In this document: positions 1,127 through 17,774 of the stretch, in pieces
How the letters are laid out: each line of letters begins with the position of its first letter
How positions within the stretch are numbered: position 1 is the stretch's first letter
Origin: an uncultured Burkholderiales bacterium
GTDB taxonomy: Bacteria; Pseudomonadota; Gammaproteobacteria; Burkholderiales; Burkholderiaceae_C
DNA: 42,001 bases
Assembly: GCA_903892175.1 (NCBI GenBank)
Contig: CAITHK010000083.1
Coordinates: forward strand, 1 to 42,001
Direction: 5' to 3'
Translations under genes and position numbers: made by a program
The notes under the pieces: generated by a model
What the model was told of the DNA's origin: nothing
Seen by the model: the letters and a program-made list of their open reading frames with translations, nothing else
Databases searched by the model: none

Positions 1127-3184
1127 ATGAAGGTCAATATACGTCGGTTCAAGCTTCAAGCCCATCCCTCGCAGGCGATAGGGTTTTTTGTGCTCATCAC
1201 CTTGCTGGCAATTGCGATGTCGGCCGCTGCTTTGCTGTGGGATTTGCGCAAACGTGAGTTGGAACATTCGCGGGTCGAAACCATCAGCATTGCGCGCATG
1301 TTCATGGAGCAAACTGAACAAAGCTTCAGTGGCCTAGACACCTTGCTGGTGGGTGTGCAAGAACGCATGCAAAACAACTACGGCAGCCAATTCCCGCTGG
1401 ACAGTTTGCCGATTCATTTGTTGCTCAACACCCGAGCTTCTGGGGTGCGGCAGGTCAAGTCTTTGTTTGTGGTGGATGCGCAGGGTCAGGTCATCAACTC
1501 GTCGAGAGAAATTGCTGCACCTGCCATGTCGGTCCGTGACCGTGCGTATTTCAAAGCGTTTGCTGAAAATCACCAGCAAGGCCTTTTCATTGGCAATCCG
1601 CTGCGCAACCGAATCGACAATAGCTGGACGTTGTACATGGCCCGAAGCATTTCGGGTTCAAACGGTGTGTTCAAAGGCGTGTTGGTGGCGGCAGTGGATA
1701 TCCCACGCTTTGAGCAGCTCTACAACTTCATGAAGCTCGATTATTTGCGACCCATCGCGATCTATTTGAGCGATGGCACCTTGGTGGCGAGTTTGCCCCA
1801 TCGAGAGAACATGATGGGAGAAAAAACACCCGAGCTTAGTGAGGCTGACATTCAGAGCGTGGGTGCCGACGTGACCATGGTTGAGCACCGCAGCGGCGAC
1901 GGCGCGGTGTACGACTTTGCCGTGGGACGGGTGCAGAAATTTCCCTTGCTGGTGAGTGTCAGCAACGATGAGGAGCAATCTTTGGCGTCGTGGCGTGAAA
2001 CCGCCGTGCCCATCAGCTTGGGTGCCTTGTTCGTGTGTGTCTTCATTGGCATCGTCGCTGCAGTTTTGGTGCATGAATTGAAACGAGAAGCGGTGTTGAG
2101 CGATAAGCTGCGCGATGCCACTGACCGCTACCACCACACGATTGACTCGGTCATGGACGCGGTGGTCGCGGTGGACGAGACACTCACCATATGCTTGTTC
2201 AATCCAGCCGCTGAGTTGATGTTTGGGTACGCGGCCCCAGACATTCTGGGGCAACAGCTGTCGGTGCTGATCCCCGAGCGTTCGCGCGCTAAGCACGATG
2301 TGCACGTGTCCCGGTTCATGCAGTCGCAGGTGTCCTCGCGCACCATGAGTTTGGCGCCCCAGTTGGAAATCACCGGGCTGCGCCGCGATGGCAGCGAGTT
2401 TCCGATCGAGTCGACGATTTCACAAACCTGGATCGGTCACCACAAGCAACTCACGGCGGTGCTGCGCGACGTGACACAGCGGCGACGCACCGAGGCCGAT
2501 TTGCACCATACCAACCAGCAATTGCGCGAGCTGTCGGCCAAACTGGAAGATGTGCGTGAACAAGAGCGCGCACGCATTGCCCGAGAACTGCACGACGAAT
2601 TGGGTCAGCAGTTGACCGGTCTGAAATTGGACCTGTCGTGGCTGGCCAATCGCCTCAAAGACGGCCGAGAAGCCAGCCCAGACAAGGTGCTGGAAATGCG
2701 CCAGTCCTTGGATGCAGCCATCACGGCGGTACGCCGCATCTCGACGGAACTGCGCCCCTTGATTTTGGATGACTTGGGCTTTGGCGAAGCCGTGACGTGG
2801 CAAGCCGCAGAAATTGAAAAACGCAGCGGCTTGAAGGTGCAGCTCGACCTGCCTGCCGCCCCTTGGGTGAAAGACGATGCCCTGGCGACCGCCTTGTTTC
2901 GGATTGTTCAAGAGTCCTTGACCAATGTGATCCGCCATGCCCATGCCAGCTGTGTGCTGGTTAGATTGGTCCATGCCGAGGCGGACTTGGTGCTGACGGT
3001 CACGGACAACGGCGTGGGCTTGCCCACGCCCCTCAAGGGCGGCGGCATTGGCTTGGTCAGCATGCGTGAACGCGTGGTGGCTCTTGGCGGCGTTTTTTCG
3101 ATTGCCAACAACAACGAGCACGGTTTGACGGTGAAGGTGGTGGTGCCTTGGCCGGTGCTTGATGCATTGGGAGACACGGCATGA
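1127..3184 (+). CDS. Membrane sensor histidine kinase (double Cache, PAS, HisKA_3, HATPase)
   Basis: This is a 685-residue NarX/FixL-like two-component kinase. The order is: a membrane helix at about residues 18-38; a periplasmic double-Cache-like sensor at about 45-285 (RSYFKAF-like block VRDRAYFKAFAEN, and RSISGSNGVFKGVLVAAVD); a second helix at about 292-314; a PAS domain at about 330-445 (NPAAELMFGYAAPDILGQ); the HisKA_3 dimerisation box RIARELHDELGQQ with phosphoacceptor His489; and a C-terminal ATPase with N-box Asn600 (ESLTNVIRHAH), DNGVGLP and GIGLVSMRERV. The stop overlaps the next gene's start by four bases (ATGA), which pairs it with that response regulator. The ligand cannot be read from sequence; Cache domains generally bind small organic molecules. 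Its position directly upstream of the mto cytochrome cluster makes control of that cluster a reasonable inference. Confidence 0.93.
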   Translation: MKVNIRRFKLQAHPSQAIGFFVLITLLAIAMSAAALLWDLRKRELEHSRVETISIARMFMEQTEQSFSGLDTLLVGVQERMQNNYGSQFPLDSLPIHLLLNTRASGVRQVKSLFVVDAQGQVINSSREIAAPAMSVRDRAYFKAFAENHQQGLFIGNPLRNRIDNSWTLYMARSISGSNGVFKGVLVAAVDIPRFEQLYNFMKLDYLRPIAIYLSDGTLVASLPHRENMMGEKTPELSEADIQSVGADVTMVEHRSGDGAVYDFAVGRVQKFPLLVSVSNDEEQSLASWRETAVPISLGALFVCVFIGIVAAVLVHELKREAVLSDKLRDATDRYHHTIDSVMDAVVAVDETLTICLFNPAAELMFGYAAPDILGQQLSVLIPERSRAKHDVHVSRFMQSQVSSRTMSLAPQLEITGLRRDGSEFPIESTISQTWIGHHKQLTAVLRDVTQRRRTEADLHHTNQQLRELSAKLEDVREQERARIARELHDELGQQLTGLKLDLSWLANRLKDGREASPDKVLEMRQSLDAAITAVRRISTELRPLILDDLGFGEAVTWQAAEIEKRSGLKVQLDLPAAPWVKDDALATALFRIVQESLTNVIRHAHASCVLVRLVHAEADLVLTVTDNGVGLPTPLKGGGIGLVSMRERVVALGGVFSIANNNEHGLTVKVVVPWPVLDALGDTA

Positions 3185-3828
3185 CTCTGGAAATTTTAGT
3201 GGCCGATGACCACGCCATCATTCGCGATGGCTTGAAAAAAATCTTGGCCGACACCCCCGACCTGTGCGTGGCGGGTGAGGCGTCCAACGGCCACATGGCC
3301 TTGGAGATGGTGCGCAGTCGAGATTGGGATGCGGTGGTGTTGGATCTGTCCATGCCTGGGCGCCACGGCTTGGAGTTGCTCAAACTCATCAAGACGGACA
3401 AGCCCAAACTGCCCGTGTTGATCTTCAGCATGCACCAAGAGGAGCAATACGCAGTGCGGGCGATCCGCGCTGGCGCCTCAGGTTATTTGTCCAAAGAAGG
3501 CGACAGCGACCTGATCGTGCCCGCCATTCGCAAGGTGGCCCAGGGCGGGCGGTTCATCAGTCCCAAAGTGGCCGAGTTGCTGGCCGAGGACACTTTGCTG
3601 CACACCAGCAACCCATCGCACACCTTGTTGACCGACCGCGAGTTTGAGGTGTTCAGCCGCCTGGTGCGCGGTGTGAGTTTGACTGAGATGGCCCACGAAC
3701 TGTCTTTGAGTGTGAAGACCGTCAGCACCCACAAGTCACACATCTTGCTCAAGATGAACATGAGCCACCAAGTGGAGTTGGTGCGCTACGCCATTGACCA
3801 CAAACTGTTCGATCCCGTGCGCGAGTAA
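3181..3828 (+). CDS. NarL/FixJ-family response regulator, partner of the upstream kinase
   Basis: This 215-residue regulator has a receiver domain at residues 1-120 with the acidic pair Asp9-Asp10, phosphoacceptor Asp55 (VVLDLSMPG) and the conserved Lys in GYLSKEG. A LuxR-type helix-turn-helix lies at about 148-210 (LTDREFEVFSRLVRG, then VKTVSTHKSHILLKM). The start overlaps the kinase stop by four bases, typical of translational coupling, so the two form one system. It ends 157 bases before mtoD. That gap holds a 9-base inverted repeat which could be its binding site; this is inference. The family and partner assignments are secure, the target genes are not. Confidence 0.93.
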   Translation: MTLEILVADDHAIIRDGLKKILADTPDLCVAGEASNGHMALEMVRSRDWDAVVLDLSMPGRHGLELLKLIKTDKPKLPVLIFSMHQEEQYAVRAIRAGASGYLSKEGDSDLIVPAIRKVAQGGRFISPKVAELLAEDTLLHTSNPSHTLLTDREFEVFSRLVRGVSLTEMAHELSLSVKTVSTHKSHILLKMNMSHQVELVRYAIDHKLFDPVRE

Positions 3829-3985: not shown

Positions 3986-4342
3986 ATGGCACACACAACA
4001 TATTCCGCCATCGCCGCCAGCTTGATTGGCGCAGCTTGCTTGTTCCTGGCTCCCGCTGCACAGGCCTTGGATGTCGAGGCCGCCAAGGCCTTGGCCAAGC
4101 AAAACAACTGCTTGAAATGCCACGCGATTGACAAAGAAAAAGACGGTCCGGCCTACCACAAGGTGGCCGAGAAATACAAAGGCAAGGCCAATGCAGAGGC
4201 CCGTTTGATCGAGCACATCACGTCCGGTGAAAAAGCCAAGTTCGCTGATGGCCACGAAGAAGAACACAAAATTGTCAAGACCTCGCCCCCCAAAGACATG
4301 GAGCAGATCAAGAACTTGGTGCAGTGGATCTTGGCTCAGTAA
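3986..4342 (+). CDS. mtoD: Periplasmic monoheme c-type cytochrome, MtoD-like
   Basis: A 118-residue precursor with a Sec signal peptide that ends in AQA at residues 25-27, leaving a mature protein of about 91 residues with one haem site, CLKCH (42-46). Size and a C-terminal helix (IKNLVQWILAQ) match small class I cytochromes c. In Sideroxydans lithotrophicus the same gene order mtoD-mtoA-mtoB-cymA is known, where MtoD carries electrons across the periplasm. The usual class I axial Met motif (PMPPN before the last helix) appears here as KTSPPK, without Met. His90, His94 or Met105 are candidate sixth ligands. A GAGGTG ribosome site lies about 6 bases upstream of the ATG. The cytochrome call is firm; the MtoD name rests on context. 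Confidence 0.85.
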   Translation: MAHTTYSAIAASLIGAACLFLAPAAQALDVEAAKALAKQNNCLKCHAIDKEKDGPAYHKVAEKYKGKANAEARLIEHITSGEKAKFADGHEEEHKIVKTSPPKDMEQIKNLVQWILAQ

Positions 4343-4359
4343 AGACATAGGGGACAACA

Positions 4360-5370
4360 ATGACAACACTTAGAAAACTCTTGACGTCTTGCCTGCTGGT
4401 CGCAGGCATGGGGGCTGGGGTCTTGTCCTGGGCCGCAGACAGCAACTTGCCCAACTTAGGTCAAGAAAACAACAAAGCGGCCATAGCCAAAGCGGCGTTG
4501 TCAAAAGATGCGGTGTGTACTGGGTGCCATGACGAAAGTGAAACAGCGCCGGTGTTGTCTCTCTACCAAACTAAGCACGGCGTGCGCGGCGACATACGCA
4601 CACCCACTTGCCAGTCCTGCCACGGTGCCAGTGACAAGCACGTCAAAGGTGACCCCAACGTCAAGGGACGTGCTGCGCCTGATGTGGTGTTTAAAAAAGG
4701 TGCGTTTGCCCAGTCTGGTGACAAAGAGCGTTCCGAGCAGTGCTTGACCTGCCACAAAGGCGCCAAGCGCAGCAACTGGGACGGTGCGCAACACCAAAAC
4801 AATGGCGTGGCTTGCAATAGCTGCCACCAAGTTCACAAGCCCACCGACAAGGTGCTGAACAAAAAAACACAAACCGAGGTGTGCTTCACCTGCCACAAAG
4901 AGCAACGGGCTGACAGCAAAAAAATCTCGCATCACCCTATTGAAGAGGGCAAAGTGGTGTGCTCAGACTGCCACAACCCACATGGTTCAACAGGCCCCAA
5001 GTTGTTGAAGAAAAACACGGTGACCGAAACCTGCTACCAGTGCCATGCTGAAAAACGCGGTCCGTTTTTGTTCGAACACCAGCCTGTGTCAGAAGACTGT
5101 GCCAATTGCCACAGCCCCCACGGTTCGAACATTGCGCCCTTGCTGAAATCGCGCCCACCGTTCATGTGCCAAGAGTGCCATGACGGAACACACGCCAGTG
5201 GCACCCCCGTTGGCCCCAATGCGTCAGGCTACCAAGGCGGCTTGACCAAAAACAACGCCAGCGGTGTGGCGCAGTACCCCAATAAAAACATTGTGGGGCG
5301 TGCCTGTATGAATTGCCACAGCCAAGTGCACGGATCGAACAGCCCTGCTGGTGGCTACCTCCAGCGCTGA
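4360..5370 (+). CDS. mtoA: Decaheme c-type cytochrome MtoA (MtrA/PioA/DmsE family)
   Basis: A 336-residue precursor with a signal peptide of about 26 residues (VLSWAA). It contains exactly ten CXXCH sites: CTGCH, CQSCH, CLTCH, CNSCH, CFTCH, CSDCH, CYQCH, CANCH, CQECH and CMNCH. The only other cysteine is in the signal peptide. Isolated histidines suited to bis-His ligation recur between them (TKHG, DKHV, AQHQ, QVHK, SHHP, NPHG, FEHQ, SPHG, GTHA, QVHG). This family sits inside an outer-membrane barrel and moves electrons between the cell surface and periplasm: inward in MtoA/PioA iron oxidisers, outward in MtrA metal reducers. Length matches MtrA/MtoA and not the longer PioA. It lies 17 bases after mtoD and directly before the barrel gene. 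Direction of flow cannot be proven from sequence. Confidence 0.95.
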   Translation: MTTLRKLLTSCLLVAGMGAGVLSWAADSNLPNLGQENNKAAIAKAALSKDAVCTGCHDESETAPVLSLYQTKHGVRGDIRTPTCQSCHGASDKHVKGDPNVKGRAAPDVVFKKGAFAQSGDKERSEQCLTCHKGAKRSNWDGAQHQNNGVACNSCHQVHKPTDKVLNKKTQTEVCFTCHKEQRADSKKISHHPIEEGKVVCSDCHNPHGSTGPKLLKKNTVTETCYQCHAEKRGPFLFEHQPVSEDCANCHSPHGSNIAPLLKSRPPFMCQECHDGTHASGTPVGPNASGYQGGLTKNNASGVAQYPNKNIVGRACMNCHSQVHGSNSPAGGYLQR

Positions 5371-5391
5371 TGTATGAAATTGGAGATCATG

Positions 5392-7764
5392 ATGAGCTCG
5401 CATAAAACCAATCTGAACCTCAGTGTCATGGCCTTGGCTGTGCTCACGGCCCTGACCGCCCTGTCGGCCCGCGCCGACGACGACGAAGCTGCAGCCTTGA
5501 AGAAACCCGAGAACACGATTGAATGGGGCGTGCTGGGTGTCTCCCAAAGTTCGGCCAAGTTCGGCGAATACTCTGGGCTGAACAAAAGCGGCGCATACGG
5601 CATCGGCAACCTCGATGTGCGCGGAGGCAGTGCGTACGATGAGAACGAAACCGGTGGCACCCAGCGCTGGTCCATCCGGGGCAGCAACTTGGGGCTTAGT
5701 TCGCGTGATGCGCAGGCCACAATCAGCGACCAAGGCTCTTGGAATCTGAACCTGCAATACGATGCGCTGCAGCACAACCTCACGGACAGCTACCAAACTC
5801 CCTACTCAGGTGGCAACGGGGGCAATGTTTTTTCTTTGCCGGGGTTTGGCCTGATAGCCAACACCAACAATCCCACGCTCACCGGCGGTATCTCGGCCGC
5901 TCAGCTGGCCGCGTTCAGAACGATGGACGTTGGCACCACGCGTAAAAACACCACCCTGAGTGGCGGCGTGGTGATCGATTCGCATCTCAATTACACCTTT
6001 GACTACAACCACCTCGATCAGTCAGGTGCGAAGTTGATGGCCTTTGGCATTGCAGGGGTTGGAGGCGCCACAGGGCAAGCGGTGTCGATCTTGCCCATGC
6101 CTATCAACTACCAAACCGACAACTACAACGTGGCCATGAACTGGCGTCAGGACGACGCCTACGCCTCCATGTCGATCGTGGGTTCTGTGTTCAGGGATGG
6201 CTACGACAGCGTGCAGTTTCAAAGTTGGGCTGGCGCCAGTACCACCCAGCTGATGCCTACGGCGCCGAACAACTCGTTCAACCAAGTCAATCTGTCGGGC
6301 GGCTACAAGCTCGCACCGCAGACCAAGCTGGCAGCCAATTTTTCTTATGGTGGCGGCTCGCAAAACGTACCCTTCGTATCGACCAATGGCTTGTTATTGA
6401 ACAACAACATTCCCAGCTCATTGAACGGTTCGATCATCAACACGCATGCCGATGCGAAATTGACCCATCAAGCCAGTCGTGAGTTGCTGATGTCGGTGGC
6501 CTATAAATACGACCAGCGCAACAACCTGACTACCTCGAACTTATACAACTTCAATGCGATCGATGGGGGTAACACGGCCAACTACCCCAATACCCCATTG
6601 AGTACCCGCAAAGAACAGCTGGAAGTCGCAGGGGATTACCGTTTGAAACAAGACCAGCATCTGCGCATGTCGGTCAGCCATGAAAATCTTGACCGCTGGT
6701 GCAACCAATTTGCGTCGGGTGGTGGTACGGCTTACACCGCCGGTGCCAACTGTGTGGTGGCTAAATCAAGCACTGACGACAAATTGGATGCCACTTACCG
6801 CATCAAAACTGCCGAAGACACACAGTTCAAAGTGGGCATGGGCTACAGCGATCGCAAAACCATTTCTGATCCCTATGCGTTGGCCAGCTTCATCAGTCAA
6901 AACGGTGCAGTGCCCGGTCCCGTGCCATCGTCCAACACCACAACCAAAGGACAAAACGCGGGTGACTATTACGGCTTTTATCCTGTGTTTTCTGCTTCTC
7001 GTCAGCAGCAATATGTCAAGGCCAGTGTCAATTGGCAGGCCAACGAGTTGTTGGAGTTGAGCGTCAGTGGCCGCTACAGCGATGACAAATACCCAGACAG
7101 CACCTATGGTGTACAAAACGGTAAGAGCTGGAGCTTGAACCTGGATGCCACCTACAACTACGCAGACAACGGTTCATTGAATGCCTTTGTCACCCAGCAG
7201 TCGCGTCAACGGGACATGACCAATTTGCAGCGCTACACCACCACAGCCAGTGCGGCCAGTGCCACTGCCCTCAACATTCCTGCAGTGGCCAGTTGGACCA
7301 ACAAGTTAACGGACGAAGATTTGACGGTGGGTTTCGGATTCAAGCAAGGCGGATTGATGGCCGGCAAATTTGAGTTGGCCGGGGACATGAGTTATTCCTT
7401 GGGCAACGCAGGCTACAACACACAGCTGAACTACCCCGGCGCCACCTTGGGCGTGCCCACGGGAAGCAACATCTTGACCTGCAGCAGCGCGCAAATTTTG
7501 TCATGCGGTCAGTTGCCAGATATTCGATCAAACACCACTCGTATCAAACTCACGGGCACCTACCAAGTCGACAAATCTTCCAAAGTGGTGCTGATGTATT
7601 TGCAGCAACGCTTGACCAGCAGCGACTACTACTACAACGGCTACCAAGGCCCGGCCAATGCCACGACCCAAGGTAACAACCCCAACACCTTGTTGCCCAC
7701 GTACCAGACCTCCGGCAGTTACTCTGTCAATGCGTTTGGGGCCAGTTTCATTCACAGTTTTTGA
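5392..7764 (+). CDS. mtoB: Outer-membrane beta-barrel MtoB (MtrB/PioB family)
   Basis: A protein of about 790 residues that forms the outer-membrane sheath around the decaheme cytochrome. It has a signal peptide (LNLSVMALAVLTALTALSARA), long stretches of alternating polar and aromatic residues typical of beta strands, and a C-terminal Phe (GASFIHSF) as recognised by the barrel-assembly machinery. The track starts at 5374, but the GGAG at 5382-5385 is best placed for the ATG at 5392; 5389 is also possible. It lacks the N-terminal CXXC found in MtrB of metal-reducing gammaproteobacteria. Its four cysteines lie in two pairs far from the N-terminus. This agrees with the MtoB/PioB side of the family. 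It follows mtoA immediately. Confidence 0.92.
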   Translation: MSSHKTNLNLSVMALAVLTALTALSARADDDEAAALKKPENTIEWGVLGVSQSSAKFGEYSGLNKSGAYGIGNLDVRGGSAYDENETGGTQRWSIRGSNLGLSSRDAQATISDQGSWNLNLQYDALQHNLTDSYQTPYSGGNGGNVFSLPGFGLIANTNNPTLTGGISAAQLAAFRTMDVGTTRKNTTLSGGVVIDSHLNYTFDYNHLDQSGAKLMAFGIAGVGGATGQAVSILPMPINYQTDNYNVAMNWRQDDAYASMSIVGSVFRDGYDSVQFQSWAGASTTQLMPTAPNNSFNQVNLSGGYKLAPQTKLAANFSYGGGSQNVPFVSTNGLLLNNNIPSSLNGSIINTHADAKLTHQASRELLMSVAYKYDQRNNLTTSNLYNFNAIDGGNTANYPNTPLSTRKEQLEVAGDYRLKQDQHLRMSVSHENLDRWCNQFASGGGTAYTAGANCVVAKSSTDDKLDATYRIKTAEDTQFKVGMGYSDRKTISDPYALASFISQNGAVPGPVPSSNTTTKGQNAGDYYGFYPVFSASRQQQYVKASVNWQANELLELSVSGRYSDDKYPDSTYGVQNGKSWSLNLDATYNYADNGSLNAFVTQQSRQRDMTNLQRYTTTASAASATALNIPAVASWTNKLTDEDLTVGFGFKQGGLMAGKFELAGDMSYSLGNAGYNTQLNYPGATLGVPTGSNILTCSSAQILSCGQLPDIRSNTTRIKLTGTYQVDKSSKVVLMYLQQRLTSSDYYYNGYQGPANATTQGNNPNTLLPTYQTSGSYSVNAFGASFIHSF

Positions 7765-7855: not shown

Positions 7856-8452
7856 ATGGACAACGAACAACCCGGGTTTTTCAAACGCGTGTGGCGCTTC
7901 TTGAAGAAACCAAGTGCCAAATATTCGCTGATCGGGATCGCCAGCACATCGTTTGTGGCGGGCATTATTTTTTGGGGTGGGTTCAACACCGCCATGGAGA
8001 TGACCAACACCTTGGAGTTTTGCACCACCTGTCACGAAATGCGTGACACGGTGTACCAAGAGTACAAAGAGACCATCCACTACAGCAACCGCACCGGTGT
8101 GCGCGCCATTTGCTCTGATTGTCATGTGCCCAAAGATTGGGTGCACAAAATGATCCGCAAGTCCAAGGCCAGTTTTGAGGTCTGGGGCAAGATCACCGGC
8201 AGCATCGACACCAAAGAAAAATTCGAAGCCAAGCGCATGGAGTTGGCAGGTCACGAGTGGCAACGCATGAAAGAAAGCAATTCACGCGAATGCCGCAATT
8301 GCCACAACTTTGATGCGATGAGCGCTGAATTGCAAAAACAAACGCCTTACAGAAAGCACATGAAAGCCAAAGAAGAAGGCAAAACATGCATCGACTGTCA
8401 CAAAGGCATTGCCCATCAATTGCCCAAAGAATACGAAGACCCTGACGAATGA
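7856..8452 (+). CDS. cymA: Tetraheme NapC/NirT-family cytochrome (CymA/MtoC-like)
   Basis: A 198-residue inner-membrane protein with a cytoplasmic N-terminus, one membrane anchor at about residues 23-45 and four haem sites in the periplasmic part: CTTCH (56-60), CSDCH (86-90), CRNCH (146-150) and CIDCH (178-182). NapC/CymA proteins exchange electrons between the quinone pool and periplasmic cytochromes. In the Mto pathway this member would pass electrons from MtoD to quinone. The length fits the short NapC/CymA type, not the pentaheme TorC type. A GGAG ribosome site lies about 10 bases before the ATG. Its stop overlaps the ccmF start (ATGATGG), which ties cytochrome synthesis to haem-attachment genes. 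Confidence 0.93.
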   Translation: MDNEQPGFFKRVWRFLKKPSAKYSLIGIASTSFVAGIIFWGGFNTAMEMTNTLEFCTTCHEMRDTVYQEYKETIHYSNRTGVRAICSDCHVPKDWVHKMIRKSKASFEVWGKITGSIDTKEKFEAKRMELAGHEWQRMKESNSRECRNCHNFDAMSAELQKQTPYRKHMKAKEEGKTCIDCHKGIAHQLPKEYEDPDE

Positions 8453-10377
8453 TGGTGCCTGAAATCGGGCAATTGGCCCTGGTGGTGGCGTTGTGTGTGG
8501 CTTTCATTCAAGGCACGCTGCCCTTGGTCGGTGCGCAGCAGGCTCGACCTGGCTGGGTGGCTTTGGCTCGCCCAGCCGCCCAAGCCCTGTTTGTCGCCAT
8601 GTCGGTGGCATTTGGTGTTTTGGTCTGGTCCTTCTACAGCAACGATTTTTCGGTCCAATATGTGGCCGAACATTCCAATGCCCAGTTGCCCGTGATCTAT
8701 CGCATCGGTGCTGTCTGGGGTGGCCATGAAGGCTCTTTGCTGCTGTGGGTCTACATGCTGGCGTGTTGGACCTTGGCGGTGGCACAGTTGTCGCGTCACC
8801 TGGACGATGAGATGGTGGCGCGCGTGTTGGGCGTGCTTGGCTTGGTGACCACCGGCTTGTTGTTGTTTGTGCTGTTCACCTCGAACCCGTTTGAGCGTTT
8901 GTGGCCCGCGCCTGGCAACGGGCGCGATCTCAACCCGCTGTTGCAAGACCCTGGCTTGGTGTTTCACCCGCCCATGCTCTACATGGGTTATGTGGGTTTT
9001 TCGGTGGCCTTTGCTTTTGCCATCGCCGCCTTGTTGTCGGGACAGTTGGACGCGGCCTGGGCCCGGTGGTCACGCCCTTGGACCACCGTGGCCTGGTCTT
9101 TTTTGACGGCGGGCATTGCACTGGGCTCGTGGTGGGCGTATGACGAGTTGGGCTGGGGGGGCTGGTGGTTTTGGGATCCGGTCGAAAACGCCTCCTTCAT
9201 GCCTTGGTTGGTGGGAACGGCCTTGCTGCATTCGTTGGCTGTGACAGACAAGCGCGGCAGTTTCAAAAACTGGACGGTGTTGCTGGCCATCAGCGCTTTT
9301 TCTTTGTCCCTGCTTGGGACATTCTTGGTGCGCTCGGGCGTGCTGACCTCGGTGCATGCCTTCGCCTCTGACCCGCGTCGTGGGGTGTTTATTTTGATTT
9401 TGCTGGCCTTGGTGGTCGGCGCATCGCTCACCTTGTTTGCCGCGCGGGCGCACCAGCACAGCCGTGGGGGATCGTTTGCACTGTTGTCGCGCGAAACACT
9501 GTTGCTGGTGGGTAATGTGTTTTTTGTGGTGGCAGCTTGCGCGGTGTTGCTGGGCACGGTGTACCCCTTGGTGATGGACGCGCTCAACTTGGGCAAGTTG
9601 TCGGTCGGCCCGCCTTACTTCAACACCGTCTTTGTGCCCATCATGTTGCCGGTTCTGGTCTTGATGGCGGTCGGCCCGTTGGCCCCCTGGAAGAATGCCT
9701 CGGCGCTTGTTTTGCTCAAGCACCTGCGCCTGGTGGCTGTGGCGGCTGTGATCGCCCCCCTGTGGGTGAGGTTGTCACTCGGTGAGGCCACGGTGATGAC
9801 CTATGTGGGCATCACGGTGGCTGCTTGGGTGGCCAGCTCGGTGCTCATGCAAGTGGTGCAGCGTGTGCGTGTGGGCATCCCGCCCGTGGCGTATTGGGGC
9901 ATGCAGTTGGCGCATGCGGGCATGGCCGTGTTTGTGGTGGGCGTCACTTTGGTGGGGGGCTACCAGCAAGAAAAAGATGTGCGGATGGAGCCGGGCGACA
10001 CCGCCACCTTGGGGGCTTACCAATTCAAACTGCTGGGCGTTGAGCCAGTCGATGGCCCCAATTACCAGGCCTCGCGTGCGACCTTTGAGGTCAGCCACAA
10101 CGCAGAAGTGCGTTTGACCTTGTTCCCTGAAAAACGGCGTTACTTTTCATCTGCCATGCCCATGACCGAGGCCGCGATTGATACTGGTGTAACGCGCGAC
10201 CTGTATGTGTCGCTGGGCGAGTTGCTGGATGGTTCGGCCTGGTCGGTGCGCGTGTTTGTCAAACCCTTTGTCGATTGGATTTGGGGCGGCTGCTTGCTGA
10301 TGGCCTTGGGGGGCTTGTTGGCGACCTTGGACCGCCGCTACCGTCGCCACACAGCCCGTGTGACGCATGAGGTGTGA
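8449..10377 (+). CDS. ccmF: Cytochrome c haem lyase subunit CcmF, copy 1 (mto-linked)
   Basis: A 642-residue polytopic inner-membrane protein that takes haem from CcmE and, with CcmH/CcmI, joins it to apocytochrome CXXCH cysteines. The tryptophan-rich haem-handling motif [19 protein letters not shown] is present. The histidines expected of a working CcmF are also present: [10 protein letters not shown] and [10 protein letters not shown] in the periplasmic loops, and ALLHSLAV and QLAHAGMA in helices. It overlaps the cymA stop by four bases and overlaps ccmH downstream. A paralogue of identical length lies at 14803. The set ccmF-ccmH-ccmI without other ccm genes resembles the layout of NrfE-F-G dedicated lyases, but the cytochromes here carry only standard CXXCH sites. 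Confidence 0.95.
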   Translation: MMVPEIGQLALVVALCVAFIQGTLPLVGAQQARPGWVALARPAAQALFVAMSVAFGVLVWSFYSNDFSVQYVAEHSNAQLPVIYRIGAVWGGHEGSLLLWVYMLACWTLAVAQLSRHLDDEMVARVLGVLGLVTTGLLLFVLFTSNPFERLWPAPGNGRDLNPLLQDPGLVFHPPMLYMGYVGFSVAFAFAIAALLSGQLDAAWARWSRPWTTVAWSFLTAGIALGSWWAYDELGWGGWWFWDPVENASFMPWLVGTALLHSLAVTDKRGSFKNWTVLLAISAFSLSLLGTFLVRSGVLTSVHAFASDPRRGVFILILLALVVGASLTLFAARAHQHSRGGSFALLSRETLLLVGNVFFVVAACAVLLGTVYPLVMDALNLGKLSVGPPYFNTVFVPIMLPVLVLMAVGPLAPWKNASALVLLKHLRLVAVAAVIAPLWVRLSLGEATVMTYVGITVAAWVASSVLMQVVQRVRVGIPPVAYWGMQLAHAGMAVFVVGVTLVGGYQQEKDVRMEPGDTATLGAYQFKLLGVEPVDGPNYQASRATFEVSHNAEVRLTLFPEKRRYFSSAMPMTEAAIDTGVTRDLYVSLGELLDGSAWSVRVFVKPFVDWIWGGCLLMALGGLLATLDRRYRRHTARVTHEV

Positions 10378-10378
10378 G

Positions 10379-10846
10379 ATGCACATGAAGACCCTGGCGG
10401 TGGTGGTGTGGTGTCTTTGCACCATGGCCTCGGCTTGGGCCAAAGAGGCTGTGCCTTTGGCCGAAGACCCGTTGGTGGAGCAGCGTTTGATCGTGATCTC
10501 TGAGGAGATGCGCTGTTTGGTGTGCCAAAACGAGTCTTTGGCTGGCTCGCGCGCCGAGTTGGCGCAAGACCTCAGGCGTGAGCTGCGCGCGTTGATCCAG
10601 AAAGGCAAAAGTGATGCGGACATCAAAGCATTCATGGTGGCGCGGTATGGCGACTTTGTCTTGTACCGCCCGCCTGTGAGCCAACGAACTTGGCTGCTTT
10701 GGCTGGGACCCTTTGCGTTGCTGCTGTGGGCCTTGGTGATGCTGTTGCGCCACCTGCGCACGCTCAAGCCCCTTGAAACGCCTCGCGAGTTGTCGGCCCA
10801 AGAGCAGCAGCGGGTGCAGGAATTGATGCAGAAAGATGCGCCATGA
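10379..10846 (+). CDS. ccmH: CcmH (CcmL-type) apocytochrome thioreductase, copy 1
   Basis: A short CcmH of about 155 residues. It has a signal sequence (TLAVVVWCLCTMASAWA), a periplasmic domain with the redox pair in MRCLVCQNES, and one C-terminal membrane helix (LLWLGPFALLLWALVMLL). CcmH keeps the apocytochrome haem-site cysteines reduced and belongs to the haem-lyase complex. The track starts at 10367, overlapping ccmF. The ATG at 10379 is preferred because AGGTG sits four bases ahead of it; 10385 is also possible. It overlaps ccmI by four bases. It keeps the same LRC/MRC core as copy 2 at 17303, so both copies look functional. Confidence 0.93.
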   Translation: MHMKTLAVVVWCLCTMASAWAKEAVPLAEDPLVEQRLIVISEEMRCLVCQNESLAGSRAELAQDLRRELRALIQKGKSDADIKAFMVARYGDFVLYRPPVSQRTWLLWLGPFALLLWALVMLLRHLRTLKPLETPRELSAQEQQRVQELMQKDAP

Positions 10847-12051
10847 TTGTTTTTGTTGTTGCCACGTTGGCCTTGTTCGCTGTGGTGCTGCTGCTGTTGT
10901 GCCGGCCTTTCATGGGCAAGCGCACATCGTTGGGCGTGAGACATGCACACGTCAATGCGCTGGCATACCAAGAACACAGGCGTCGCCTGGACATGGATTT
11001 GGCCGAGGGTTCGCTGTCGCCACACGACCATGCGCAGGCCCAGCGCGAGTTGGCCCAGCGCGTGCTCGACGAATCGCACGGTGACCCCTCGGCTGCTCAG
11101 GCCTCTTACCCCACGCCCACACGCACGCTGGTGGCTGTTGGCTTGTGGCTACCTGTGACGGCCGTGTGTTTGTACCTGTGGCTAGGAACACCCGAGGCCA
11201 TCGAGGGGCCTGCCGCAACCAATTCTGCAGCGGCCCAAGAGGTGGAGCAGATGGTGGCTGGCTTGGTGCAAAAGCTCAAGCTTGACCCCAACAACCCCAA
11301 AGGATGGGCCATGTTGGCGCGCTCCTACAAAGTGATGGGTCGCCCGCTGGATGCTGAAAAAGCCTATGCACGTGCAGCGCAGGTGATGCCCTTGGATGCC
11401 CAGATGTTGGCGGACTATGCTGATGTGGCGGCCACCAATGCCAATGGCAATTTCGCAGGTAAGCCCGCTGCCTTGATTCAGCAGGCGTTGGCGGCTGACC
11501 CCAACCATCCAATGGCGCTGTGGCTGGCTGGCACGGCGGCCTTTCGTGCTGAGCGTTACACCGAGGCGATTCAAACCTGGACCCGCTTGCAGGCGCTGTT
11601 GCCGCCAGATTCGGACGACGCACAAACATTGGTTGACGCGATCCAAGAGGCGCGTGACAGCGGCGGCACCTTGACTGCGCCCGTCTCGGCGCTCGCGCCC
11701 AAACCCGCCGTCAAGATCGAGGGTGCGGTGGAGTTGGACCGAGGGCTGCAGGGCAAGGTGCTGCCCTCGGATGTGTTGATGGTCATTGCCCGTCGACCTG
11801 GTGAGCGCATGCCGCTGGCGGTGTTTCGCTCCAAGGTGGCGGACTTTCCGCAAGCCTTTGTGATCGATGACAGCCTGCGCATGGGAGAAGGCGTGAGCTT
11901 GTCGGCCCATCCGAAGATCGAATTGGAGGCGCGTGTCTCCAAGTCAGGCCAAGCCAAACCCGAACCGGGGGATTTGTATTCAGCCACCACACCGACGGTC
12001 ACGTCGGCCAAGTCTAAGTTGAACTTGCGCCTGGATGCGGTTCGTCCTTGA
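10843..12051 (+). CDS. ccmI: CcmI-type TPR apocytochrome chaperone, copy 1
   Basis: A 402-residue protein with two N-terminal membrane helices (about 1-20 and 96-115) that flank a cytoplasmic loop. TPR repeats follow at about 130-265 (LDPNNPKGWAMLARSYKVMGRPLDAEKAYARAAQ), then a C-terminal periplasmic domain (DVLMVIARRPGERMPLAVFR). CcmI binds the C-terminal helix of apocytochromes and delivers them to CcmF-CcmH. The start overlaps the ccmH stop (ATGA). It is the last gene of the mto-linked transcript and faces a hemerythrin gene on the other strand. The paralogue at 17775 is longer, and the two differ most in the N-terminal loop. Confidence 0.92.
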   Translation: MIVFVVATLALFAVVLLLLCRPFMGKRTSLGVRHAHVNALAYQEHRRRLDMDLAEGSLSPHDHAQAQRELAQRVLDESHGDPSAAQASYPTPTRTLVAVGLWLPVTAVCLYLWLGTPEAIEGPAATNSAAAQEVEQMVAGLVQKLKLDPNNPKGWAMLARSYKVMGRPLDAEKAYARAAQVMPLDAQMLADYADVAATNANGNFAGKPAALIQQALAADPNHPMALWLAGTAAFRAERYTEAIQTWTRLQALLPPDSDDAQTLVDAIQEARDSGGTLTAPVSALAPKPAVKIEGAVELDRGLQGKVLPSDVLMVIARRPGERMPLAVFRSKVADFPQAFVIDDSLRMGEGVSLSAHPKIELEARVSKSGQAKPEPGDLYSATTPTVTSAKSKLNLRLDAVRP

Positions 12052-12084: not shown

Positions 12085-12624
12085 TCAGATGTGGGCGGCC
12101 AGATAGCTGGGACGGTGCATCATGTGCAAGGACAAATCTAGGGCTTGCATGTGGTTTGGGTTGCGACTCAGGATGCGATGCGCCAAGGGTAAAAACTCTC
12201 GCTCTTCAAAACGTGCGTGGTGTTGGTACTGCTCCACCAACTGGGTCAAGCAATCGGTGTTGAGTTGATGGTCGCTGCCTTTGGCTATTTTTTTCAACTC
12301 AGGTTCTATCGTGTGCCAAAGCGATTCGAGCCTGCGGTGTTGGCGCACCAACTCTTCCACCATGTCGTCCACGCGCGCCCGCTCTGAGCCGAGCGTTGCG
12401 CTTTGGCTGACGGCAGGAAACAAAGCGCGCTCCTCATCGCTGTGGTGGACTTGCACCGAGTTTTTGAAAAAGGCCAAGGCGTTGAGGGCTGTTTTTTTGG
12501 CCAATTCGGCAGGGGCCAACAGTGCTGGCAACTCGGCCAAGCGGTCGAGCTGGATCACGATGCCGAAATGCGAATGGGTGAAGTCTTCCAGTGGATGGCT
12601 GGATGCTTGGGTGCTTGTGTTCAT
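12085..12624 (-). CDS. Hemerythrin HHE-domain protein 2
   Basis: A 179-residue protein predicted to form a four-helix bundle that binds a di-iron centre. Visible ligand-type motifs are FTHSHFG, VQVHHSDEERALFP, LVRQHRRLE and YQHHARFEEREFLPLAHRI. No signal peptide or membrane segment is seen, so it should be cytoplasmic. The track extends to a TTG at 12645, but the ATG at 12624 has a good AAGGGG site six bases ahead, so that start is used. It lies 17 bases after another hemerythrin gene and is probably co-transcribed. Family members bind oxygen, nitric oxide or iron, or act as sensors; which applies here is unknown. Its place between two cytochrome-maturation sets is unusual. Confidence 0.85.
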   Translation of the reverse strand: MNTSTQASSHPLEDFTHSHFGIVIQLDRLAELPALLAPAELAKKTALNALAFFKNSVQVHHSDEERALFPAVSQSATLGSERARVDDMVEELVRQHRRLESLWHTIEPELKKIAKGSDHQLNTDCLTQLVEQYQHHARFEEREFLPLAHRILSRNPNHMQALDLSLHMMHRPSYLAAHI

Positions 12625-12641
12625 GGTTTGCCCCTTGTGTG

Positions 12642-13226
12642 TCAATGGCGCCCCAGTCCGATGGGTTCGGGTGCATTCATGGTGATGCGTGTGAACAATC
12701 GGTCGTACAAGGGCTCATGGGGGTATTTGCCGGTGAGCGGGTCGGCGTTGGTTTCAAACGCAGCATCCAAGGCCGCCCAGTCTTCGTCGGTCAAGACCTT
12801 GAGGGCTTCCGGAATCACCACGGTTTCTTCCATTTGCATGTGCTGCACATAGAAGTCTAAAAATGTGTTTGTGGCGTGTTCGAAGGCTGGGCGTCTGGAT
12901 TCACCCAGCAATTCCCAAGCCAGCAACAGGTGCTGGAGTTCTCGCACATTGGACTCACCCTTGGCATGGTCTTTTTCCAGTTGCTGGATCACCACCTGGC
13001 AGTGGGGTGAACGTTTGGCGACAGGAGGAAACAAGAGCGCAGACTCTTTGGTGTGGTGCAAGCGCTCTGGAAACTCGTCGATGTAGAACAGCATGGCGCG
13101 CAGCACATCGAAAAACATTTCAGGCTGGTCTTTGGGGCCTCGCTTGAGCATCATGCGCAAAGACTGCAGCATGGCAGACAAGGCAGCATGTTCTTCGCGG
13201 ATGATTCGAATACTGGGGTGGTTCAT
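12642..13226 (-). CDS. Hemerythrin HHE-domain protein 1
   Basis: A 194-residue hemerythrin-like protein. Helical segments carry the expected iron-binding residues: IIREEHAALSAML, ERLHHTKESALLFPPV, LEKDHAKGES and FYVQHMQMEETVVIPEAL. No export signal is seen. The ATG at 13226 has an AGGAGA ribosome site eight bases upstream. It is transcribed away from ccmC across a shared 180-base intergenic region and leads a two-gene unit with the next hemerythrin. The family is confident, the physiological role is not. Candidate roles are protecting against oxygen or NO, or handling iron in a cell that exchanges electrons with iron. Confidence 0.87.
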   Translation of the reverse strand: MNHPSIRIIREEHAALSAMLQSLRMMLKRGPKDQPEMFFDVLRAMLFYIDEFPERLHHTKESALLFPPVAKRSPHCQVVIQQLEKDHAKGESNVRELQHLLLAWELLGESRRPAFEHATNTFLDFYVQHMQMEETVVIPEALKVLTDEDWAALDAAFETNADPLTGKYPHEPLYDRLFTRITMNAPEPIGLGRH

Positions 13227-13407: not shown

Positions 13408-14166
13408 GTGATACATCCCACGCGAACCGGCATCCACTGGTTTTATTACGCTGCTCCGCAGACTTTTTATGGCTTGGCAGCTCGCCTGTGGCCTGGGTGC
13501 GCCGTCTTGGCCAGCGCCTTGTTGGCGGCAGGCCTATGGCTGGGCTTCATGGTGGCGCCCACCGATTTCCAGCAAGGTGAGGGCTACCGCATCATCTTTG
13601 TCCATGTCCCCGCATCGTGGATGTCGATGGTGATTTACTTGGCCATGGCGTTTTGGAGCGTGCTGGGGCTGACCTTCAACACACGCTTGTCGGGCATGAT
13701 GACCCGCGCCTTGGCGCCCACTGGGGCCTTGTTTGCTTTTCTGTCGTTGTGGACCGGTGCGCTGTGGGGCAAGCCGATGTGGGGCGCTTGGTGGGTGTGG
13801 GATGCACGTTTGACCTCAGAGCTGATTCTTTTCTTTTTGTATTTGGGCTATATCGCCTTGACGTCGGCAATCGACGACACCCGTCGGGGCGACCGCGCCG
13901 GAGCGCTGGTGGCCATCGTGGGGGCGATCAATGTGCCGATCATTTATTTCTCGGTCAAATGGTGGAACACCTTGCACCAAGGCGCGTCAGTCTCCTTGAC
14001 CAAATCGCCTTCCATGGCCGCGGTCATGCTGTGGGCCATGTTGTTGATGGCTTTGGCTTTTTGGTTGTACACCCTGGCCTTGGTGCTCTACCGTGTGCGC
14101 ACCTTGATCTTGCAGCGTGAACGCCACGCCGCGTGGGTGCAAGACTTGCAGGAGGTGCAGCAATGA
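13408..14166 (+). CDS. ccmC: CcmC haem-handling protein
   Basis: A 252-residue inner-membrane protein with six predicted helices. It has the haem-handling motif WGAWWVWDARLTSELIL and flanking histidines (IIFVHVPASW, WWNTLHQGAS). CcmC loads haem onto CcmE. The only usable in-frame start is GTG at 13408: the frame is open back to 13363 but holds no ATG, GTG or TTG. It is the first gene of the second ccm operon and overlaps ccmD by four bases. In most System I operons ccmA and ccmB come directly before ccmC; here they are absent and the hemerythrin pair occupies that side. Confidence 0.95.
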   Translation: MIHPTRTGIHWFYYAAPQTFYGLAARLWPGCAVLASALLAAGLWLGFMVAPTDFQQGEGYRIIFVHVPASWMSMVIYLAMAFWSVLGLTFNTRLSGMMTRALAPTGALFAFLSLWTGALWGKPMWGAWWVWDARLTSELILFFLYLGYIALTSAIDDTRRGDRAGALVAIVGAINVPIIYFSVKWWNTLHQGASVSLTKSPSMAAVMLWAMLLMALAFWLYTLALVLYRVRTLILQRERHAAWVQDLQEVQQ

Positions 14167-14354
14167 CCTGGAACAGTTGGGCTGATTTTTGGGCCATGGG
14201 TGGCTATGCGGTGTATGTCTGGGCCAGCATGGGCATGACCTTTGGCTTGTTGGCCCTGGAAGTGTTGCAAGCGCGTTGGGCGCGGGCCCAAGTTCTGGCG
14301 CAGTTGCGCGCCGAACGTGTCTTGGCCGAATTACCCGCAGAGGATGTGCATTGA
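14163..14354 (+). CDS. ccmD: CcmD small membrane protein
   Basis: A 63-residue protein with one membrane helix ([21 protein letters not shown]) and a basic cytoplasmic tail, typical of CcmD. CcmD helps release haem-loaded CcmE from the CcmABC complex. The track extends it upstream to a GTG at 14133 inside ccmC, but the ATG at 14163 overlaps the ccmC stop by four bases as elsewhere in this operon. It overlaps ccmE by one base (TGATG). Confidence 0.88.
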
Positions 14355-14806
14355 TGAAACCCAGAACCAAACGCTTTGCTCTGATTGCCGCAGGCATCAT
14401 GGTGTTGGCCGCGGCAGCGGCTTTTGTGTTGAATGCTTTTCAAAGCAACTTGGTGTTCTTTTTCACGCCGACCCAAGTCAACCAGGGTGAAGCCCCCAAG
14501 GGCCGCATGTTTCGTGCCGGTGGCATGGTGAAAGAAGGCAGTTTGCAACGCGACGGCAACACGGTTCGGTTTGTCATCACCGACACCGCGAAAGACATGA
14601 CGGTCACCTTTGTGGGCTTGCTGCCCGACTTGTTCAAAGAGGGCCGTGGTGTGGTGGCGCAAGGCAAACTGGGTGATGACGGTGTGTTTGTGGCCAGCGA
14701 GGTGCTGGCCAAGCACGACGAAAACTACATGCCGCCTGAAGCCAAGCATGCCTTGGACCAAGCGGCTGCGGCGAAGGCTGCGCAATCGGTGAAAGAGACC
14801 CCATGA
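14354..14806 (+). CDS. ccmE: CcmE periplasmic haem chaperone
   Basis: A 150-residue protein with an N-terminal membrane anchor (about 9-29) and an OB-fold periplasmic domain. It ends with the haem-binding motif [12 protein letters not shown], where His121 is the covalent haem ligand and Tyr125 the axial ligand. CcmE carries haem from CcmC to CcmF. The track's longer frame from 14189 runs through ccmD; the ATG at 14354 is the family start. Only one ccmE is present in the window, so both CcmF copies would draw on it. Confidence 0.95.
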
Positions 14807-16731
14807 GCGCTGAGTTTGGACATTTCGCTTTGATTTTGGCGGCGGTGGTGGCCCTGCTGCAAGGTGTGCTTCCTTTGCTGGGTACGTATGTGCGCGGCAC
14901 GCAGATGCAAATCACCTTGCAAAGCTTGGCGCGCCCCACGGCAGCCCTGCAGTTTGTGTTGGTGGCTCTGGCTTTTGCGGCGCTGGCGGCGTGCTTTTTG
15001 AACAACGATTTTTCAGTGCAGTACGTGGCACAACATTCCAACTCTTTGCTGCCCAAGCCCTACCAGTTGGCTGCAGTGTGGGGTGGCCACGAAGGCTCAC
15101 TCTTGTTGTGGGTGTTGCTGCTGGCGCTGTGGTCGGTGGCGGTGGCGCTGTTCTCGCGCAGTTTGCCGCTGGACATGGTGGCTCGGGTGCTGAGCGTGTT
15201 GGGTTTGATTTCGGTGGGCTTTTTACTCTTTATCCTGACCACCTCGAACCCGTTTGAGCGCTTGTTGCCTGCCGCGTTGGATGGCCGTGACCTGAACCCC
15301 TTGTTGCAAGACCCCGGTTTGGTGATCCACCCGCCCATGCTCTATATGGGGTATGTCGGCATGTCGGTGGCGTTTGCCTTTGCGGTGGCTGCTTTGCTCA
15401 GTGGCCGCTTGGACGCTGCATGGGCACGTTGGTCACGCCCCTGGACCGTGATTGCCTGGACTTTTCTGACGTTTGGCATTGGTCTGGGCTCTTGGTGGGC
15501 GTATTACGAACTGGGCTGGGGCGGTTGGTGGTTTTGGGACCCGGTCGAAAACGCCTCGTTGATGCCTTGGTTGGTGGCCACCGCCTTGATCCATTCCCTC
15601 ATGGTGACCGAGAAGCGCGGCAGCTTCAAAGCCTGGACGGTGTTGTTGGCCATTGCCGCGTTTTCGCTCTCGCTGCTGGGCACGTTCTTGGTTCGCTCTG
15701 GGGTACTGACCTCGGTGCATGCCTTTGCGTCTGACCCCAGGCGCGGTGTTTTTGTGCTGATCTTTTTGGCGGTGGTGGTGGGATCTTCGTTGACCTTATT
15801 TGCCTGGCGCGCACCGCGTGTGACCTTGGGTGGCCGCATGAACTTGGTGTCGCGCGAGTCGTTCTTGCTGGCCAACAGTGTGTTGTTGGTGGTGGCCACG
15901 GCCGCGGTGCTGTTGGGCACGCTGTATCCCTTGATCATTGACGCCTTGAATTTGGGCAAGCTGTCAGTGGGCCCACCGTATTTCAATGCCGTGTTTGCGC
16001 CGCTGTTGGTGCCGGTGGTGTTTTTGATGATTCCGGGCTCGATCTCACGTTGGCGCGAGGCGCACCTGGCCGAGTTGGCGCATCAGCTGCGTTTCACCGC
16101 TGCCGGTGCCTTGGCGGTGGCCTTGGTCTGGCCTTACTTTTTGGGCGGCTGGTCGGTGGGCACGGTGTTGGGATTTTTCTTGGGCGCGTGGGTGGCCTTG
16201 GGGACGGCGCAGCAAGTGTTTGAGCGTGTGCGCAAGCCTGGTCGCGTGGGCCTGTCGTTTTGGGGGCAGCAAGTGGCCCACTTTGGCATGGCGGTGTTGG
16301 TGATGGGTGTCACCGGCGTCAAGTCTTATGAGGTTGAGCGGGATGTGCGCATGCACGTGGGCGATGTGGTGACGATTGCGCCCTACACCTTCCGTTTGGC
16401 CCAACTCAACGAGGTGCTCGGGCCCAACTACAAGGCCGTGCGCGCCGATGTGCAGGTGCTGCGCGATGGCCAGGTGGTCGAGCTGTTGCAACCCGAGAAG
16501 CGCCGCTATTTTTCGTCGGCCATGCCGATGACCGAGGCGGCCATCGATTCGGGCTTTATGCGTGATTTGTATGTGTCATTGGGTGACGCGCTGGACGATG
16601 CGCGCACCGAGTGGAGCATGCGTGTTTACTACAAGCCTTTCGTGCCCTGGCTATGGGGCGGGGTGTTGCTGATGGTGTTGGGCGGTGTGTTGGCCGCCTT
16701 GGACCGCAGATACCGCAAGGTCCAAGCATGA
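14803..16731 (+). CDS. ccmF: Cytochrome c haem lyase subunit CcmF, copy 2 (main operon)
   Basis: A 642-residue polytopic protein, paralogous to and the same length as the copy at 8449. It has the motif [19 protein letters not shown] and the same key histidines ([36 protein letters not shown]). It joins haem from CcmE to apocytochromes. It overlaps ccmE and ccmG by four bases each. Differences from copy 1 are spread through the helices and the C-terminal periplasmic domain, while the functional motifs are kept. That points to two working proteins, not one decaying copy. Confidence 0.95.
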
Positions 16732-17306
16732 AAAAATTTCTGATTCCTTTGGGGTTGTTTCTCGGCCTGGTGGTGTTTTTGGCCATTGGTTTGAACCGTG
16801 ACCCGCGCGAAATCCCATCGCCGTTGATCAACAAACCCGCGCCTGAATTCAGCTTGCCCACTTTGAACGGTGACACGCCTTTCTCGCCTGCCGACATGCG
16901 CGGCAAGGTGTGGATGTTCAATGTCTGGGCCACATGGTGTGTGGCGTGTCGCGAAGAGCACCCGGTGTTGGTGGCGTTTGCCCAAAAGTACAGCGTGCCC
17001 ATCGTGGGTTTGAGCTACAAAGAAATTCAGCCGCAAGACGAGGCCGCCAAGCAAAGCGTGGAAACAAAACTCCGCGTGGCGCGCGAACGCAGCCAAGTCT
17101 GGCTCCAGCGCCATGGCAACCCCTACGTCAACTCGGTGATGGACTTGGATGGCCGTGTGGGCATCAACTATGGGGTCTACGGTGTACCCGAGACCTACAT
17201 CATCGACAAAGAAGGTGTGATTCGCTTCAAGCATGTGGGCGCTGTGACCCCTGCCTTGCTGGCTGAAAAAATCATGCCGCTGATCGAAAAGCTGAATCAA
17301 TCATGA
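16728..17306 (+). CDS. ccmG: CcmG/DsbE thioredoxin-like protein
   Basis: A 192-residue membrane-anchored thiol-disulfide protein. It has an N-terminal helix at about 4-22 and a thioredoxin fold with the redox pair WATWCVACREEHP (Cys71, Cys74) and the cis-proline loop GVYGVPETYIID. CcmG reduces the cysteines of apocytochromes or CcmH before haem attachment. The track begins at 16611 inside ccmF; the ATG at 16728 overlapping the ccmF stop is the family start. There is no second ccmG in the mto-linked set, so this one presumably serves both. Confidence 0.95.
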   Translation: MKKFLIPLGLFLGLVVFLAIGLNRDPREIPSPLINKPAPEFSLPTLNGDTPFSPADMRGKVWMFNVWATWCVACREEHPVLVAFAQKYSVPIVGLSYKEIQPQDEAAKQSVETKLRVARERSQVWLQRHGNPYVNSVMDLDGRVGINYGVYGVPETYIIDKEGVIRFKHVGAVTPALLAEKIMPLIEKLNQS

Positions 17307-17773
17307 GCTTGCTGCAACGTTGTTGGCTTGGCTTGGCCTTTTGTGTGGCCGCCTTGAATGCGCACGCGCAAGCAGGGCCTGAGGGCGCGCCGCTGGCCCA
17401 AGACCCGGTGGTGGAAGCCCGCTTGGTGGTCTTGTCGCAAGAACTGCGCTGCTTGGTGTGTCAAAACGAATCCTTGGCCTCGTCGCAGGCCGAATTGGCC
17501 GATGACTTGCGCCGCGAAGTGCGCGAGCTGATTCGACAAGGCAAGACCGACCCAGAGGTGAAAGATTTTTTGGTGTCCCGCTACGGCGACTTTGTGCTCT
17601 ACCGCCCCGAGGTCAAACCTTTGACCTGGGTGCTGTGGTTTGGCCCATTTGTGTTGCTGCTGGTGGCGCTGGTTCTGCTCGGTCGGTATGTGCAAGAACG
17701 CCGCCTGCAGATCAAACCCCAGACCCTCAGCGACGAAGAACGCGCCCGTGCTGAGCAACTGTTGAAAGGCTGA
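17303..17773 (+). CDS. ccmH: CcmH (CcmL-type) apocytochrome thioreductase, copy 2
   Basis: A 156-residue protein with a signal peptide ending in NAHAQA, a periplasmic three-helix domain containing LRCLVCQNES, and a C-terminal membrane helix (VLWFGPFVLLLVALVLLG). It works with CcmG and CcmI to prepare apocytochromes for CcmF. It overlaps ccmG by four bases. It is very similar to the copy at 10379 through the redox core and differs in the signal peptide and tail. Confidence 0.94.
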   Translation: MSLLQRCWLGLAFCVAALNAHAQAGPEGAPLAQDPVVEARLVVLSQELRCLVCQNESLASSQAELADDLRREVRELIRQGKTDPEVKDFLVSRYGDFVLYRPEVKPLTWVLWFGPFVLLLVALVLLGRYVQERRLQIKPQTLSDEERARAEQLLKG

Positions 17774-17774
17774 T

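Follow-up and report, generated by a model that had tools for sequence, protein, structure and literature searches.

The window analysed here, a stretch of 42,001 nucleotides taken as a whole, carries at positions 3986 to 4342 a gene for a small cytochrome which an original prediction described as MtoD-like and devoid of the usual axial methionine motif. The questions raised by this locus are which residue holds the haem iron on the distal side, and whether a changed ligand tunes electron transfer between the cytochromes encoded next to it.

Identity and genomic context of the cytochrome

The gene and the segments of its product that are discussed below are as follows.

3986..4342, plus strand: mtoD, periplasmic monohaem class I cytochrome c, 118 aa with signal peptide (translation, 4XXL match, Pfam and Foldseek)
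4109..4123, plus strand: CLKCH haem attachment motif, residues 42-46, with Cys42 and Cys45 holding the haem and His46 as proximal ligand (sequence; family-invariant)
4265..4267, plus strand: codon of His94, the predicted distal haem ligand, which matches His95 in 4XXL and is invariant in 126/126 sequences
4277..4294, plus strand: KTSPPK loop, residues 98-103, following the ligand; its S-P-P is a clade-specific insertion and the loop is not the ligand site

The C-terminal half of the translated product reads DGHEEEHKIVKTSPPKDMEQIKNLVQWILAQ, and His90, His94, KTSPPK (98-103) and Met105 lie where the original prediction had placed them. Its closest solved relative by sequence, as found with phmmer, is MtoD of Sideroxydans lithotrophicus ES-1 (4XXL; E 8.8e-41 over residues 4-117), and the same entry is the top Foldseek match (E 4.9e-10, 68% identity, rmsd 2.2 Å) of a haem-free model built from the window protein together with nine relatives (mean pLDDT 78). 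The product scores 38.2 bits against PF00034 (Cytochrom_C; cut-off 21.3), carries an N-terminal CXXCH, and its model shows helices at residues 30-39 and 105-117, the latter C-terminal, as in a class I cytochrome c fold. The greatest similarity over the mature protein is to 4XXL, mtoAB and a NapC/NirT-family gene are linked, and both residues equivalent to the ligand histidines of 4XXL, His46 and His94, are present; the methionine in a PMP(P/A)N loop that marks His/Met cytochromes c551/c552 is missing along with its motif. The likeness to MtoD that had been proposed is confirmed by sequence and fold, and the protein is an MtoD ortholog encoded in an mtoD-mtoA-mtoB-cymA/imoA operon, both read directly from the data.

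The neighbouring genes are listed below.

1127..3184, plus strand: sensor histidine kinase, adjoining the mto operon and conserved in the neighbourhood
3181..3828, plus strand: NarL/GacA-type response regulator, directly upstream of mtoD
4360..5370, plus strand: mtoA, decahaem DmsE-family periplasmic/outer-membrane cytochrome (TIGR03508 290 bits, above cut-off)
5374..7764, plus strand: mtoB, MtrB/PioB-family outer-membrane porin (TIGR03509 401 bits and PF11854, both above cut-off)
7856..8452, plus strand: cymA/imoA, tetrahaem NapC/NirT-family inner-membrane cytochrome (PF03264 above cut-off; TIGR02161 295 bits, just below cut-off)
8449..12051, plus strand: ccmF-ccmH-ccmI, haem-attachment genes that follow the mto operon directly

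The genes mtoA, mtoB and cymA/imoA follow mtoD without interruption, and ccmF, ccmH and ccmI come next. This arrangement is widespread: mtoA, mtoB and a NapC-family gene lie near mtoD in 40 of the 45 relatives whose downstream sequence extends for 4.5 kb or more, and a NapC-family or MtoA-type gene adjoins in 18/20 regions from other families, an octahaem gene being adjacent in the remaining two (L148 and L160). It has already been published that in Betaproteobacteria mtoD is linked to mtrCAB and mtoAB clusters (PMC8805035), and MtoAB homologs of humic-lake bacteria have been described too (PMC6344600). The kinase and response regulator upstream of mtoD are kept in 49 of 71 relatives having at least 1 kb of upstream sequence each, which suggests that the pair at 1127-3828 is devoted to regulating this operon. 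Further downstream, a second ccmC...ccmF...ccmH/ccmI set is found at 13408-19112 of the window, and between the two sets there are two minus-strand ORFs (12085-13226) that appear, by eye, hemerythrin-like.

The distal haem ligand

According to the paper describing 4XXL, the haem iron is coordinated by two histidines, His47 and His95, absorbance above 600 nm is absent, the potential at pH 7 is +155 mV and the haem is the most exposed among the monohaem cytochromes compared (152 Å2) (PMC4412085); bis-His coordination was later upheld by NMR (PMC11511738). Our alignment shows that the ES-1 numbering is offset by one, so that His47 and His95 correspond to His46 and His94 of the window protein. In addition, a search of the 4XXL sequence for methionine after CXXCH found none over the matched range, and a Met ligand is therefore impossible in ES-1 MtoD within that range. 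The absence of the usual axial Met motif is real, and two of the checks that accompanied the original prediction, comparison with the known structure and alignment at the standard ligand position, point to His94; it is also, though, an already published defining property of the MtoD family, and not the surprise it had been taken for.

Conservation was evaluated in a set of distinct sequences, 109 at first, comprising those of the window, 4XXL and relatives; the addition of 17 from a further family of the order raised the total to 126. His94 is invariant in both sets (109/109 in the alignment, 126/126 distinct MtoD-family sequences). One of the two seed patterns contained the His94 motif and part of the sample is biased in this respect, but all of the 32 + 17 sequences collected without such seeding carry His94 as well; the distal His is fixed across the MtoD family in Burkholderiales-order genomes.

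His94 was one of three candidates that had been put forward, together with His90 and Met105, and it is the only one that stood. Coordination by His90 instead is very improbable: this residue lies in the same DGHEEEH loop and is kept in close relatives (87/109), but the ligand of 4XXL aligns with His94, and position 90 varies to Lys, Ser, Thr, Glu or Gly in 22/109 sequences; in the larger set His is kept in 91/126, with Lys, Ser or Thr taking its place in 33 sequences and Glu or Gly in another two, while position 94 never changes. Even less credit, hardly any in fact, can be given to Met105 providing an ordinary His/Met haem. Many close relatives share this methionine (64/109 and 65/126); however, the model places it in the C-terminal helix (105-117), the position is occupied elsewhere by Pro, Glu, Ala, Lys or Thr, and 31/109 family members have no Met at all after CXXCH, nor does 4XXL over the matched range. 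Both residues were thus rejected as ligands on the basis of conservation and 4XXL.

We are left with His94, and it is almost certain that the window encodes an ordinary MtoD ortholog with a bis-His haem on His46 and His94. The invariance of His94 and the match to 4XXL are direct observations, whereas the ligand set itself is carried over from the crystal structure. The protein would be a class I cytochrome c, periplasmic and monohaem, with the c551/c552 fold; His would take the place of the distal Met, and the iron would be held by His46 and His94. Judging by the likeness to the crystallised MtoD, its haem is expected to be low-spin and unusually exposed, at a potential of about +150 mV, which would be some 100 mV below that of mitochondrial cytochrome c; homology suggests a soluble periplasmic one-electron carrier. 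The lower potential anticipated relative to His/Met class I cytochromes fits the +155 mV published for MtoD (PMC4412085).

Position of the PMPPN-equivalent segment

No PMPPN motif was found in the translation of mtoD. Among CXXCH proteins of the fetched relatives, the score against the family profile separates cleanly the MtoD type (at least 70 bits) from c551-like proteins (below 70 bits): the PMP motif is present in none of the former and in 27/30 of the latter, the other three falling outside the simple pattern used. The absence of PMPPN in the window protein is therefore not due to chance. Paralogues of the c551-like type with PMP also occur in the window's own genome (e.g. G000 contig C197, L168).

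A joint alignment of the MtoD family with 28 c551-like paralogues was built in three MAFFT modes, which agreed. The ligand Met of the paralogues aligns with window position 93, one residue from His94, in 26/28 cases and with position 91 in 2/28. Since the paralogue Met aligns there, it is EEEHK (91-95) that corresponds to the PMPPN site; KTSPPK, the equivalent proposed originally, was ruled out by the three agreeing modes. Residues S, P and P at 100-102 are missing in about 28 to 31 of 109 relatives, and partly in ES-1 too; on the evidence of the alignment, SPP is a small insertion typical of the freshwater Comamonadaceae-like clade of the window, an unreported but minor feature. A useful annotation rule arises from the comparison, as DGxEExH alone would tell MtoD from c551-like His/Met paralogues.

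Redox partners and possible role

It had also been proposed that the changed ligand tunes electron transfer between MtoA and CymA, and this claim is not supported. MtoA spans +30 to -350 mV (PMC4412085/PMC13390432) and ImoA 0 to -400 mV (PMC13390432), so the +155 mV of MtoD exceeds the potentials of both partners, and in ES-1 NMR experiments MtoD interacts with neither MtoA nor ImoA (PMC13390432). PmcA, a His/Met monohaem cytochrome at -143 mV, interacts with both (PMC13390432); its potential indicates that the ligand alone does not set this value.

These data bear also on the broader idea that in the window organism it is MtoD that physiologically carries electrons between MtoA and CymA/ImoA, which we consider unlikely, albeit with some real chance of being correct. 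The tight operon of mtoD with mtoA, mtoB and a NapC-family gene argues for it, and in Shewanella MtoD could accept electrons from CymA and hand them to MtrA (PMC13390432). Moreover, the window cluster held no recognisable PmcA-like monohaem gene, and the PmcA pattern had no match in any fetched locus, weak evidence of absence given that the pattern comes from the published N-terminus only. Against it stand a potential far above that of ImoA and also above that of MtoA, and the missing interaction in ES-1 NMR. The near-universal gene neighbourhood implies that MtoD serves MtoA and NapC-family cytochromes somehow, in tension with the negative ES-1 NMR; the conflict is that linkage places MtoD with MtoA and CymA/ImoA, whereas potentials and NMR deny transfer between them.

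Two haem-copper oxidase subunits I are encoded in the window genome, as are photosynthetic reaction centre L/M proteins; both oxidases and reaction centre are candidate high-potential routes for MtoD electrons. Neither a RuBisCO large subunit nor a TIGR03507 outer-membrane decahaem cytochrome was found in this assembly, which is 97% complete with 6.6% contamination. Reaction centre L/M and the two oxidases are located on contigs C281, C308 and C147, with RuBisCO not detected, and this looks like an Mto system in an apparent photoheterotroph.

MtoD-like cytochromes in other loci

In two loci of other genomes (L141:2784-8786 and L144:7212-8734, in G056 and G186), an MtoD-like monohaem cytochrome is encoded between napB and napC, with napA upstream in L141. 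Its loop, GSEENHKIVKTMPPND, retains His94, has lost His90 and shows MPPN following His94. Close copies were restricted to one genus in the 61-genome sample of its family. This protein is different from NapO of Azospira suillum, a candidate discarded as NapO is dihaem (PMC5845722). MtoD-like genes inside nap operons are unreported, although minor in significance. MtoD-type bis-His monohaem cytochromes could conceivably be a general partner of NapC/NirT-family quinol dehydrogenases, employed in porin-cytochrome conduits and, within a single genus, as part of an operon for periplasmic nitrate reductase (napA...napB - mtoD-like - napC), with a His/Met ligand switch conceivable at His94-MPPN; we find this generalisation quite improbable.

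Tandem pairs of MtoD-type genes were observed in four further loci (L143, L146, L149 and L153), and in several cases mtoA or a NapC-family gene comes next. The second copies diverge, e.g. with CLRCH, DGHEE(T/I)H or DGHVELH.

Comparison with known systems

The window protein shares with ES-1 MtoD (4XXL) the fold, the haem motif, the DGHEEEH distal-ligand loop and both ligand histidines, as well as the clustering of its gene with mtoA, mtoB and a NapC/NirT-family gene. The post-ligand loop (KTSPPK) is two to three residues longer in the window protein, and the ES-1 cluster also holds pmcA, which was not recognised in that of the window using the N-terminus pattern.

Class I His/Met cytochromes c551/c552 resemble window MtoD in overall fold (Foldseek matches 351c, 2exv and 3zoy), CXXCH and GPxY motif; they differ in having a distal Met in PMPPN, a Trp over the haem and a less exposed haem (PMC4412085). 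The M61H mutant of Pseudomonas stutzeri ZoBell c551 (PDB 1FI3), with the same fold and its ligand Met changed to His, would be, judging by the entry title, an engineered counterpart of what MtoD shows in nature; unlike MtoD it is not a natural protein, and the remainder of its haem loop is c551-like.
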